From Fimbriimonadaceae bacterium (GTDB lineage Bacteria > Armatimonadota > UBA10988): DNA of 64,000 nucleotides. Under the pieces are notes generated by a model, which saw only the letters and a list, made by a program, of their open reading frames with translations, searched no databases and was not told where the DNA came from. A program made the position numbers and the translations under genes. The DNA is taken from contig JADZEX010000005.1 in NCBI GenBank assembly GCA_020850355.1, positions 1 to 64,000 on the forward strand, written 5' to 3'. Positions 27,091 to 32,074 of the stretch are shown here, in pieces. The first letter of the stretch is position 1; the number at the start of each line of letters is the position of its first letter.

Positions 27091-28326
27091 CTAGCCCCCG
27101 CGGAACCAGCCGAGGATCCCGCCGCCGCCGGACGGGGTGGGCCCGACCGGCTCGGGCGACTCGTCCAGGAACTCGGCCTCGCGGTCCATCACCTGGTAGG
27201 CGATCCGCCGGATGCTCTGCGCAATCTGCGTCTTCGGCTGGCTCAGCACAAACGGCTCGCCCTCGTTGACGCTGGTCACCGCGACCCGCCCGTCGGACGG
27301 AATGTAGGCGCTGATGTCGTACTCCAGCGTCTGTTCGACGTCCTCCGGACTGATCCCGACGTCGGCGTTGGAGCGGTTCAGCACGAGCTTGACCTTGTCC
27401 GGCCCGTACCGCAGCTTCTGCATCATCGCCAGCGCCGTCTTGGTATTATGCAGCGCCAGCAGGTCGAGGGCAGTCAGCAGGATGATCTCATCACTGTGGT
27501 CGAGCGCCGTCAGCGTGGTGTCCTGTAGGAACGACGGCGTGTCGATCACGATGTAGGTGTGCCGCTCACGCAGCACCTGCAGGACCTTCTCGACCACGAA
27601 GGTGGTGATGGTGTCGGCGTACTCGGGCCGCGCCGGCGCCGCCAGGACCTTCAGGTTGCTGTCGTCATGGAGCGTCAGGAAGCTCTCCATGAGATCCGCG
27701 TCGAGCTGGTTCATGCGCTGAATCACCGCCGCGACGGTCCGCTCGGGGGTGATGTTGAGCATCAGATCGATGTCGCCGAACTGCAGGTTGAGATCCACCA
27801 GCACCGTCGGCCGGCCACTCTCGCGGGCCAGCACAACGGCCAGGTTGGCCGCCAGCATCGACTTGCCGACGCCGCCCTGCGGACTGTAGACCGCCACCAC
27901 CTTGGCGTGCACCGGGCCGCTGCCGAACTCGCTGGTCGCCAGCAGCGCCCGCCGCTGTTCGACCCGCTGGGCGACCTCGGCGATGTTCTGCCCGGCCGTG
28001 TCGGTTTCCAAGGGCTTCGGCAGGAAGTCGTCCGCCCCCGCCCGCAGAGCCGCCCGCAAGTCGTCGAAGGTCGGCTCGTCGCCGGTCAGCACAATCCCCA
28101 GGGCGCGGTGCTGGCCGCGCAGCTTACCCGCCAGATCGATGGCGTCGACGCCGCGCAGGCCGAGGTCGAGCACCACGACATCGACGTTCAACGGGCCGAT
28201 CAACTGCGACAGCTCGGACCCTTCGTCGAGGTCGTCGACGACTTCGAGCTTCGGCTGGGCCTCCAACGTCTCGCGCAGAATCTGGCGCGAGGCGTCGTCC
28301 GAATCGGCGATCAGGATGCGCGCCAC
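27091..28326 (-). CDS. cpaE: Tad pilus localisation ATPase CpaE/TadZ
   Basis: 411 residues. An N-terminal receiver-like domain (1-120) keeps a phospho-acceptor-type Asp in VVVLDLGLRG and a Lys in DDFLPKPLE. The following MinD/ParA-type ATPase (about 145-370) has the deviant Walker A SPQGGVGKSML, a LVDLNLQFGDIDLML segment and IVIDTPSFLQD. CpaE/TadZ proteins place the pilus machine at the cell pole. A Pro/Gly tail ends in GWFRGG. GTG 28326 is chosen because AAGGAG lies 7 nt before it and the receiver domain starts immediately; the longer frame upstream overlaps cpaC and lacks coding character. It lies 10 bp downstream of cpaC. Confidence 0.93.
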   Translation of the reverse strand: MARILIADSDDASRQILRETLEAQPKLEVVDDLDEGSELSQLIGPLNVDVVVLDLGLRGVDAIDLAGKLRGQHRALGIVLTGDEPTFDDLRAALRAGADDFLPKPLETDTAGQNIAEVAQRVEQRRALLATSEFGSGPVHAKVVAVYSPQGGVGKSMLAANLAVVLARESGRPTVLVDLNLQFGDIDLMLNITPERTVAAVIQRMNQLDADLMESFLTLHDDSNLKVLAAPARPEYADTITTFVVEKVLQVLRERHTYIVIDTPSFLQDTTLTALDHSDEIILLTALDLLALHNTKTALAMMQKLRYGPDKVKLVLNRSNADVGISPEDVEQTLEYDISAYIPSDGRVAVTSVNEGEPFVLSQPKTQIAQSIRRIAYQVMDREAEFLDESPEPVGPTPSGGGGILGWFRGG

Positions 28327-28336
28327 AGCCGGCTCC

Positions 28337-30688
28337 TTACCACTTGATCCGCGGGGAGAGCAGCCACACGACGGTGGTCTGTTCCTTCTTGCTGTCGCGG
28401 TACTTGAACAGCTCGCCAATCACCGGGATGCTCGACAGGAACGGGATCCGGCTGACGTTCTTGCGTTCCTGTTCGGTCGTCAGCCCGCCCAGCACGAGCG
28501 TCCCGCCGTCGTCCACCGTGACCGTCGCCTCGGCGGTCCGGGCCGAAATGCCGGGGATCACCGAGCCGTTGATGTTGACTGCGATGCCGTAGTTGACGGC
28601 CGAGACTTCGGTCTCGATCTCCATCTCGATCTGGCTGTCGCTCGGACCCCAACTGATCCGCGGGGTCACCAGCAAGCGGATCCCGACCGGCCGGTACTCG
28701 ACCGACGTGCCGGTCGCCCCACCGGTGCCGGTGGTCGTGCTGGGCAGCGGCACCTGCTCGACAATCTCGCAGCGCCCTTCCATGGTGTCATCGCTGACGA
28801 TGTAGGGTTGCGTCAGAACCCGCGCCCGGTTGTTGCCAACCAGGGCCCGAATGCTCGCCGCCAGGGGATCCAGGCGGGCCATCGTCTGCCCCGGCGTGCG
28901 CTCACCGTAGACCGTCAACTGCCCGTTGGTGGCGCTGATGGTGGTGCCCTGCTGATTCGAACCACTGGAGCCGCCGGTGCTGCCCCCGCTCGTGCCACCG
29001 GTCGGCACGCCGTAGACCAGCCCGAGCTGCTCGCTGTCCGAGGCGGTCATCTCGACCACCTGCACATCGGTGACCACCTGCGCCCGCTTGACCACCAGCC
29101 CGCGCTCGCGCAGTTCGTAGCCGCCGTAGGAGTCGATGATGTCCTGGACCAGCGCAATCAGCTCGCCCTGCTCGTCTTCGTTGCGCACGGTGCCCCGCAG
29201 GGTGACCAGCTTCTTGGGCGTCTCGCTGACCGCCACGGTGACCCGGTCGGTGGGGATCCCGGACTCCGCCAGCGCCTCGGCGATGGCCTTCTCAATCGGC
29301 GGCTTCGGCGGCTCGGGCGGGCTCGTCGATCCCGCGCCACCGGCTCCGCCGAGCAGCTCACTCGGTGGCGGCGGCGCGGGGGTGGCGATGTTGTTGGTGA
29401 TGATGGCCGCGCTGCCCAGTTCGAACTGCACGATCTGTTCGGCCTTCAGGCGGTCGGCCGGGACTGGCGCGTCGCCGGAGAGGAGGACCCGGATGGTCTC
29501 GTCGTCACCCGGCCGCAGCCGCACCCGAATCGCCGCGTTCGGCAGCTCTTCGGCCAGCAGCTTCTCCAGCCGCTGCTCCTGTCCGCTGAGGGCCGCGGCA
29601 TCGAGCTGCGCCGGCTTCTCGACCTGCAGCAGGTTGAGCACCCGAGTGTTCGGCGGGAAGAGCGCGGCGATCGCCTGCTCGACGCGCTGCCGGTCGGCCA
29701 GGCTGGGGACGCTGCCGAGCAAAATCACACTCGCCCCGGCGGCGTCGTCGCGGGCGATCACTTCCACCTTGCCCAACCCGAGCCGCCGCAGCAGGCCGTC
29801 GATTTCGACCGACCCGGGCAGCCGCCCCGGCGTGGCGGTGGCGGGCGGCCCGACCACCTTGACGCTGATCTGCTTCTTCTCGACCTGCCCCAGGAAGGCG
29901 TCGGCCCCGAGGTACCAGACCAGCAGCGAGGTCTCGCCGGCCGACTTGCCGATCAGGACGACTTCCCGTGGCGGCATCAGCACGACGTCGGCGACGCTGT
30001 CGGTGGCGATCAGCGCCCGCTTCAGCTCGGTCGGGACGCTGACCAGCCGGGCCTCACCGACCTGCAAGGTCAAGGTGCCGCCCTCGGCGATGTCGTTGAG
30101 GCGCACGTCGACGGTTGGCAGACCGGGCAGCGGCGGCAGCGGCCGCCCGGAGCCACTCGGCGCCGGCAGCGGCGGCAAGCTGGTGGTGCCGCTCCCGCCG
30201 ACCTGCAACCGCGACTCGACCTTGGCGACGCGGGTCGCCACGAGGGCCTTGGCGCGTTCGGCGGCGGCAGCGCTGCTGACCATCCCGCTGAGCGTCGCGG
30301 TGTCGCCGCTGACGGTCACGGTGATCGGCTCGTTCTGCGTCAACGGGTCGGCGGCCAGCGCCAACTGCAGGCTGCGCTCGCGGGCCAGGCCGACTTCGCC
30401 GGCGGCGACCACGTTGACCTGGTAGGTGATGGTGTGGTTGTCCCGGTCCCAGACGACGACGGTCGTGCGACCGACCTGCTTCCCGCTGACCCGGACCCCG
30501 TCGGGGAGGATCTCGAAGCTGGCCTTGTCGGCATCGATCACCTGCGAGCGCTGGAAGCCGGGCGCGGCGAGCAGGACCTGCCCGCCGACCTCGACGACCA
30601 CCTCGCGGGCGGCGGTCTGCGCGCTGCTCGGCAGCGCGCTCCCGACCGCCAGCACCAGCAACCAGAGGATGCGGTTGAATTGCGTCAT
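28337..30688 (-). CDS. cpaC: Tad pilus secretin CpaC/RcpA, enlarged
   Basis: 783 residues, well above the usual 450-600. A signal peptide at 1-24 (cleavage near SSAQTA) is followed by a pilus-N-terminal module (27-97), a BON-like module (105-162), a second pilus-N-terminal module (205-278), three more BON-like modules (about 298-357, 370-430 and 462-533), and the secretin domain (535-783). The secretin part has ARVLTQPYIVSDDTMEGRC, YRPVGIRLLVTPRIS and the DDGGTLVLGGLTTEQ signature. A Ser/Gly-rich loop at 562-585 lies in the secretin. The protein should form the outer-membrane pore of the Tad machine. The ATG at 30688 has a Shine-Dalgarno 30 nt away with a hairpin between them. Confidence 0.93.
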   Translation of the reverse strand: MTQFNRILWLLVLAVGSALPSSAQTAAREVVVEVGGQVLLAAPGFQRSQVIDADKASFEILPDGVRVSGKQVGRTTVVVWDRDNHTITYQVNVVAAGEVGLARERSLQLALAADPLTQNEPITVTVSGDTATLSGMVSSAAAAERAKALVATRVAKVESRLQVGGSGTTSLPPLPAPSGSGRPLPPLPGLPTVDVRLNDIAEGGTLTLQVGEARLVSVPTELKRALIATDSVADVVLMPPREVVLIGKSAGETSLLVWYLGADAFLGQVEKKQISVKVVGPPATATPGRLPGSVEIDGLLRRLGLGKVEVIARDDAAGASVILLGSVPSLADRQRVEQAIAALFPPNTRVLNLLQVEKPAQLDAAALSGQEQRLEKLLAEELPNAAIRVRLRPGDDETIRVLLSGDAPVPADRLKAEQIVQFELGSAAIITNNIATPAPPPPSELLGGAGGAGSTSPPEPPKPPIEKAIAEALAESGIPTDRVTVAVSETPKKLVTLRGTVRNEDEQGELIALVQDIIDSYGGYELRERGLVVKRAQVVTDVQVVEMTASDSEQLGLVYGVPTGGTSGGSTGGSSGSNQQGTTISATNGQLTVYGERTPGQTMARLDPLAASIRALVGNNRARVLTQPYIVSDDTMEGRCEIVEQVPLPSTTTGTGGATGTSVEYRPVGIRLLVTPRISWGPSDSQIEMEIETEVSAVNYGIAVNINGSVIPGISARTAEATVTVDDGGTLVLGGLTTEQERKNVSRIPFLSSIPVIGELFKYRDSKKEQTTVVWLLSPRIKW

Positions 30689-30694
30689 AGTCGC

Positions 30695-30717
30695 CCGGCT
30701 GGACTGCCCCCAGCCGG
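30695..30717 (-). promoter_or_regulatory. Hairpin between Shine-Dalgarno and cpaC start codon
   Basis: On the minus strand an ideal AAAGGAGG (30719-30726) lies 30 nt before the cpaC ATG. A perfect 8-bp stem (30710-30717 with 30695-30702) and 7-nt loop fills that gap. Folding it out leaves 7 nt between Shine-Dalgarno and ATG, the normal spacing. No in-frame start codon lies in between. Confidence 0.6.
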
Positions 30718-30769
30718 TCCTCCTTTCCTCACCCGCCCGCGCCGCGCCTGGCCGGCCGTCGGGGTCGCC

Positions 30770-32074
30770 CTAGTAGCTGACGACCGACTTCTCTTTGCCG
30801 CGGTAGACCTCAATCGTACCACGACCCGGCCGCGGCGGGGTGGCGGTCGCCGGGCGCGCCGTCTTGACATCGCCGCGCAGCCGCCGAACCTCGTCCTGCA
30901 GCGCCTTGACCTGCGCGGTGTTGGACTGCATCACACTGACCGGCGGGACCGCCGGGCCGGCCGGTGCCGGGGTCGTCGCGGGCGGCTTCATTCGCGACCC
31001 GTAGCGCTCCAGATTGCGCTTCTCGACGCGCATCTCGGTCATCCGCACGTCGCGCTCCAGGGCGTCCAGCTTCCGCTGTTCGGCCGCCTCGCGGTCCTGC
31101 TCGCTCTGCCGCTGCCGCTCGTTGTACTTCACCACGTCGCGGCGGTCGAGCGGCACCACATCGTCGAGCGTCAGCAGCGGCGGCCCGCCCGGCCCGCCGG
31201 CCTCGCCCCCGGCGCCGGCCAGGTAGGCTTGCGCGTTGTCGAAAATGATCTGCTGGGCGTCCTCGGCGCGGTGCAGCGCCAACTGAATCTCGGCCGTCTT
31301 GCGCCACAGCGTGAGGTACTGCGCCTGCGCTGGAGTGACCTCGATGGTCACGCTGGGATTCTCGATCTTCGGCTCCAACTGCTCCTGGAGCTTGGCGATC
31401 GGGTCGTCGAAACGAGTCTTCAGCGCATCCGCGGTGGGCGGCGGAGTCTTCGAGGCTTCCGCGGCCCGCTCGTCCTGCTTGGCCTTGATTTCCTTCTGCA
31501 GGTCGGCTTTGCGCTTGTCTTCCTGCTGCTGCGAGAGGATCTTGTCGACCGCCACCACGCGCACGTTGCTGGCGAGCCGGACGCTGACGCTCTGGCCGGC
31601 GTTCTGGTCGAAGTTGACCCCGAAGGCGTCGACCCGGTCGTCAGGCTTCAGGAACGACAGGTCGTACAGGCTGGGCTGCGGCGGCGCGGCGATGGTCACC
31701 GCGACGAAGCCCGGCTGCACCGACTGCGAGGCCTGTTGCGGCGGCGGATCGATGTTGGTCGGCGTGAACGCATCGCCGGGCGCCAGGGCGACGCGCGCCT
31801 GCCCGCCGATGATGAACTTGGTGTCGGTGTAGGCCTCGGCGGGCACCCGGTTGGCGAAGTCGGCCTCCGGGATATCCTCTTCTTTGATGTCGTCGAGCCC
31901 GACCCGCCCGCCTTGGGCAATCGCGCGGGCGGCCACGGTGGCCTTCTTGGTGGGCGGCGGCTTGGCCTTGTCGTCGGCCTTCCCCCCGCCGCCGCCGGGG
32001 CCGCGGAAGTACAGGAAGATCAACACGAACATGGTGATCGCCAGCACGGGCACCATCAGGCGTCGGACGTTCAT
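30770..32074 (-). CDS. cpaB: Tad pilus assembly protein CpaB/RcpC with long C-terminal extension
   Basis: 434 residues; usual CpaB is about 260-330. One N-terminal membrane segment (5-24) is followed by a Gly run, an SAF-like domain (about 45-110: ATVAARAIAQGGRVGLDDI, ALAPGDAFT), and the RcpC region with SVSVRLASNVRVVAVDKIL at about 170. Two charged coiled-coil stretches follow (QQEDKRKADLQKEIKAKQDE; RQRQSEQDREAAEQRKLD) and a basic Pro-rich tail. CpaB is a periplasmic Tad component thought to act with the secretin. The coiled coils are an extra feature. ATG 32074 has GAGG at good spacing; the gene is 16 bp after cpaA. Confidence 0.9.
   Translation of the reverse strand: MNVRRLMVPVLAITMFVLIFLYFRGPGGGGGKADDKAKPPPTKKATVAARAIAQGGRVGLDDIKEEDIPEADFANRVPAEAYTDTKFIIGGQARVALAPGDAFTPTNIDPPPQQASQSVQPGFVAVTIAAPPQPSLYDLSFLKPDDRVDAFGVNFDQNAGQSVSVRLASNVRVVAVDKILSQQQEDKRKADLQKEIKAKQDERAAEASKTPPPTADALKTRFDDPIAKLQEQLEPKIENPSVTIEVTPAQAQYLTLWRKTAEIQLALHRAEDAQQIIFDNAQAYLAGAGGEAGGPGGPPLLTLDDVVPLDRRDVVKYNERQRQSEQDREAAEQRKLDALERDVRMTEMRVEKRNLERYGSRMKPPATTPAPAGPAVPPVSVMQSNTAQVKALQDEVRRLRGDVKTARPATATPPRPGRGTIEVYRGKEKSVVSY

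Follow-up and report, generated by a model that had tools for sequence, protein, structure and literature searches.

The best explanation for the leader of a cpaC-like secretin gene in an uncultured Armatimonadota bacterium, and one that we consider probable, is that its ribosome-binding site is bridged by a hairpin, a type also called 'split' or 'accommodated'. In such a site the 16S tail of the 30S subunit would pair with the Shine-Dalgarno (SD) octamer AAAGGAGG, the 23-nt hairpin that lies between the SD and the AUG would remain folded and be extruded from the mRNA channel, and the 7 leftover nucleotides would bring the AUG to the P site at the usual distance. We infer that the ribosome accommodates the folded hairpin and thereby drives secretin synthesis; the computed basis of this explanation is the geometry of the sequence, the predicted hairpin, the spacing optimum of the genome, and the finding that neither a second start nor a proximal SD is available.

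The cpaC leader and its hairpin

The stretch of DNA that was analysed (the window, 64,000 nucleotides) is part of a contig of a 6.67-Mb genome bin; according to GTDB, the same family includes two Armatimonadetes groundwater MAGs. The minus strand carries a Tad/Flp-pilus operon that encodes, in addition to a peptidase A24, cpaB/rcpC, cpaC, a cpaE-like gene (with response regulator and ParA domains), and cpaF (with a T2SSE domain). The features of interest are listed here, all gene starts being predictions.

30770..32074, minus strand: cpaB/rcpC-like gene of the same operon, upstream of cpaC (RcpC, 7.1e-11)
30726-30719, minus strand: SD octamer AAAGGAGG, complementary to the expected anti-SD (direct reading)
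30718, minus strand: A, unpaired, between the SD and the hairpin
30710..30717, minus strand: 5' arm of the hairpin, CCGGCTGG (pair probabilities 0.994-1.0)
30703..30709, minus strand: hairpin loop GGGCAGT, the outer G and T of which pair as a closing G.U to leave a 5-nt loop
30695..30702, minus strand: 3' arm of the hairpin, CCAGCCGG (direct reading and folding)
30689..30694, minus strand: GCGACT, unpaired spacer 3' of the hairpin, which together with A30718 gives the 7-nt folded spacing
30688-30686, minus strand: ATG of cpaC
28337..30688, minus strand: cpaC-like Tad/Flp-pilus secretin, 783 aa, ATG start (Pfam Secretin 1.4e-38, T2SS-T3SS_pil_N, BON)
Minus strand: signal peptide of the secretin, MTQFNRILWLLVLAVGSALPSSAQ (read by eye)

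Direct reading bore out the geometry described in an earlier, sequence-only reading of this DNA, with every coordinate exact. In particular, AAAGGAGG is separated from the ATG by 30 nt, which is outside the functional range (the optimum for this genome is 5-8 nt), and a perfect 8-bp stem with a 7-nt loop lies wholly inside this interval, occupying 23 nt of it and leaving 1+6 = 7 nt once folded. The same reading had asked that the leader be folded. RNA folding predicts the stem with a probability near 1 and adds one G.U pair to it, such that 8 Watson-Crick pairs and the closing G.U give 9 pairs and a 5-nt loop, with a stability of -18.4 kcal/mol at 37 C and of -12.4 kcal/mol at 60 C. The probability of the hairpin was 0.97-1.0 in almost all folding contexts, and 0.61 and 0.83 in two contexts that were cut right at the start; the openness of the SD varied with the context, the SD being partly paired in some. 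A suggestion that the hairpin regulates the amount of secretin found no support, as a stem that retains -12.4 kcal/mol at 60 C would be permanently folded and does not resemble an RNA thermometer. A thermosensor was rejected because the stem is far too stable, and since it is too stable for a temperature switch we regard the bridge as probably constitutive.

In the list of open reading frames, the cpaC frame starts at ATG 30688. Upstream of this ATG the frame stays open over 27 codons, and the list contains no in-frame ATG, GTG or TTG between the last upstream stop and ATG 30688, in agreement with the claim that no in-frame start lies between the SD and the ATG. When the N-terminus is compared with those of the orthologues in two related genomes, G001 and G002, the start residue falls at a near-equal position relative to the conserved R6 and W9. 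ATG 30688 is thus credible as the start of cpaC, on account of a normal signal peptide (judged by eye) and an N-terminal length matched by the orthologues. Translational coupling between cpaB and cpaC is unlikely, judging from the 81 nt that separate the stop codon of the cpaB/rcpC-like gene from the ATG of cpaC.

The hairpin could instead be an intercistronic RNA element (a processing or stability hairpin, or an attenuator) between cpaB and cpaC whose placement between the SD and the ATG is incidental. That it is GC-rich, intergenic and within an operon would suit such an element, as would the fact that G001 also has a hairpin downstream of its SD, in which the pairing is kept despite sequence changes (see below). 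However, a terminator scan found no intrinsic terminator after the cpaC hairpin, the downstream sequence being GCGACTATG with no T run; the scan found neither an internal promoter nor a terminator at the leader; and the palindrome of the hairpin is essentially unique, which argues against a repeat or REP-like element. With no U-tract, no terminator and no repeat family, and with a place and length that fit the bridging geometry exactly, the hairpin is very improbable as an element of this kind.

Several further features of the region were noted. A GTG mini-ORF in another frame spans the cpaC SD and hairpin, and its TGA overlaps the ATG of cpaC as ATGA (window 30685-30733, minus strand); no SD was seen ahead of its GTG. 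The SD of the downstream cpaE-like gene overlaps the stop codon of cpaC (TAAGGAGCCGGCT-GTG; window 28320-28345, minus strand) at normal spacing, and the start of this gene is probably coupled to cpaC. Its CCGGCT spacer is identical to part of the 5' arm of the cpaC hairpin. The BON domain of the secretin (window 30106-30377, minus strand; residues about 105-195) is lacking in the G001 orthologue, in which the alignment shows a gap at this place.

SD spacing across the genome and chance expectation

To place the 30-nt gap in context, a codon-usage model blind to SDs was used to call genes over 2.39 Mb of the genome, and 1688 leaders were analysed. SD complements of at least 6 bases show a sharp peak at an aligned spacing of 4-8, and beyond 12 nt they occur at background level only. 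For SDs of 7 and of at least 8 bases the modal aligned spacing is 7, which is the folded spacing of the cpaC leader. The octamer AAAGGAGG occurs in 16 copies in 6.67 Mb, of which 7-8 sit 5-9 nt before long open reading frames, the others being background plus the cpaC copy. Given the genome-wide spacing peak and this distribution of copies, the cpaC octamer at 30 nt is an outlier. The hybrid of the cpaC octamer with the anti-SD was computed at -11.5 kcal/mol, whereas the best proximal site reaches -4.9 kcal/mol. Moreover, the other tad operon genes whose leaders were read have normally spaced SDs, making cpaC the odd one out of its operon.

Because the whole assembly yielded no 16S gene, the anti-SD was derived from the peak in SD usage. 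One site resembles a 16S 3' tail, namely AAAGGAGGTGATCC on the minus strand (GGATCACCTCCTTT on the plus strand) of another contig (L120, G000:C38:30717-30724), where Rfam finds no 16S rRNA; this sole such site lies outside any rRNA gene and was rejected as the 16S tail. Elsewhere (L153, near 7994, minus strand), a perfect 14-pair hairpin with TTTT lies before a predicted GTG start; this resembles a terminator immediately ahead of a gene, or else the start was mis-called.

In the main rival explanation, the hairpin is inhibitory and dampens weak, SD-less initiation at cpaC, with the distal AAAGGAGG being no more than a standby or docking site. About 32% of genes have no SD of even 4 bases at the normal distance, and SD-less starts are therefore tolerated in this genome; in G001 the likely start codon is covered by a hairpin. 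Translation is generally inhibited by hairpins in the 40 nt that precede a start (Osterman 2013, cited in PMC4631060), and the same text cites the general finding from which a hairpin placed 6 nt ahead of the AUG would, if not bridged, be expected to hinder initiation. Under this explanation, however, both the presence of so rare an SD as the 16-copy octamer and the exact 7-nt folded spacing become coincidences, and we consider it unlikely.

How often would the arrangement that bridging requires arise by chance? A perfect stem of at least 8 pairs occurs in a comparable stretch of 15 of the 1688 leaders, and in 7 the last 30 nt are as stable as those of cpaC. Taking the genes with a distal SD and no proximal one, we counted stems of at least 8 pairs that restore a spacing of 4-10 nt. 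For distal SDs of at least 6, 7 and 8 bases the expected numbers were 0.06, 0.013 and 0.007 (about 0.17, 0.04 and 0.02 when scaled to the whole genome), and one was observed each time, cpaC, these figures applying to a case picked by eye. Coincidence of the SD and the restoring stem at cpaC is unlikely. In the converse test, we took stems of at least 6 pairs that end within 9 nt of a start and looked for an SD immediately upstream of the hairpin. Bridged arrangements numbered 1 among 13 stems of at least 7 pairs (cpaC) and 0 among 32 of 6 pairs, with 2.15 expected over all 45. As there is no excess of SDs, the genome makes no systematic use of bridging, and a class of bridged genes was rejected for want of an excess in either direction of testing. 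With one convincing case in 1688 leaders, these findings suggest that the hairpin-bridging device is rare.

Leaders of related genomes

The search for relatives covered five genomes of the class, and two scans of GTDB contigs yielded no relatives beyond G001 and G002. In the leader of the G001 gene (L003; GGAAAGGAGAGCCGGCCGTG) the same SD stands at a normal 8-nt spacing from a GTG. A hairpin begins 1-2 nt after this SD (GCCGGCCG...CGGUCGGU), and all of the first seven pairs of the window's stem are kept in it (7/7), with one two-sided change from U-A to C-G and one change from G-C to G.U. The chance of such a stem at that place is about 0.024 and that of all pairs being kept under random change about 0.03, two figures that are not independent. 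The likely GTG start of G001 lies within the hairpin, which consequently cannot bridge. In G002 (L002), an SD-like AAAGGG is found 27 nt from a GTG; its stem has 5 pairs (UCCGG/CCGGG), is expected by chance at about 0.27, and is outcompeted by other folds.

Conservation of the hairpin among relatives, as opposed to that of a bridged site, is hinted at by these comparisons of leaders. Covariation of the stem, which the sequence-only reading had proposed to look for, is at most hinted at by the pair-preserving changes in G001, although the SD there is normally spaced and the stem of G002 is weak. That reading had also held that relatives with a distant SD and no pairing would speak against it, and G002 comes close to this with its AAAGGG and weak stem, but the SD is itself weak. 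The cpaC arrangement is probably particular to its lineage.

The leader of G001 also bears on another explanation, in which the start of cpaC was displaced or lost, or the assembly is in error, such that the SD originally belonged to a start some 6 nt further on, since lost by mutation or misread, with the ATG as a fallback. Consistent with this, TGG 30712-30710 is in the cpaC frame, which is open upstream for 27 codons, and the SD of G001 serves a GTG 8 nt away in a leader that MAFFT aligns with that of cpaC almost without gaps, an alignment that is insecure at about 47% protein identity. However, neither the TGG nor the adjacent out-of-frame CTG is a start codon of the cpaC frame, and the in-frame TGG means little because any 3-nt range of spacings always holds one in-frame codon. 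Furthermore, the N-terminus that begins at the ATG matches the length of the orthologues, and an assembly error would leave the perfect hairpin unexplained. Altogether, a lost start or misassembly strikes us as decidedly unlikely. That the hairpin was inserted into a spacer like that of G001 is not favoured, given the near-gapless alignment, neither alignment being secure at this level of protein identity.

Hairpin bridging stands as the best fit to the spacing optimum, an SD that ranks among the strongest of the genome, the hairpin, the lack of an alternative start and the precedent in phage T4; conservation as a bridged site is not evident from G001 and G002. Bridging might have evolved in one lineage from a G001-like leader with the start inside the hairpin, the hairpin going from hindering to enabling initiation and secretin synthesis coming to depend on an accommodated SD, a scenario that we offer as doubtful speculation.

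Hairpin-bridged sites in known systems

Few hairpin-bridged ribosome sites have been proven, and a literature search for them returned the T4 cases only. The precedent that the sequence-only reading had named, T4 gene 38, is a proven case with close numbers: a strong SD lies 22 nt from the AUG and a hairpin reduces this distance to 5 nt (PMC3014915). Gene 38 and cpaC thus share a distant strong SD and a hairpin, between the SD and the AUG, that restores a functional distance. They differ in that cpaC is a chromosomal bacterial gene with a 30-nt gap and a very GC-rich stem, and is a predicted case. In T4 gene 25 a stem shortens the gap from 27 nt to 11 nt (Nivinskas 1999; Malys and Nivinskas 2009; reviewed in PMC3014915), and in both T4 genes mutations that destabilise the hairpin reduce initiation (PMC3014915). 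Gene 25 resembles cpaC in having a stem-shortened gap at an intercistronic junction and, according to PMC3014915, in that distant relatives lack the arrangement, which is confined to close ones. The evidence for gene 25 that this text describes consists of DMS probing, reporter assays and conservation in about 30 phages, whereas the cpaC case comprises one genome and one non-bridged relative.

If the cpaC leader is indeed bridged, it would be a chromosomal example, and rules for finding starts that rely on linear SD spacing would miss real starts. In the E. coli thrS leader, the hairpin lies between an upstream single-stranded docking region and the region of the SD, and not between the SD and the AUG. 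The likeness of this split ribosome-binding site to the cpaC leader lies in a long hairpin that is accommodated without unfolding (Sacerdot et al., as discussed in PMC3936740). The cpaC leader would, if the bridging explanation is true, provide a compact and cleanly testable case in which the ribosome accommodates a hairpin between the SD and the AUG.
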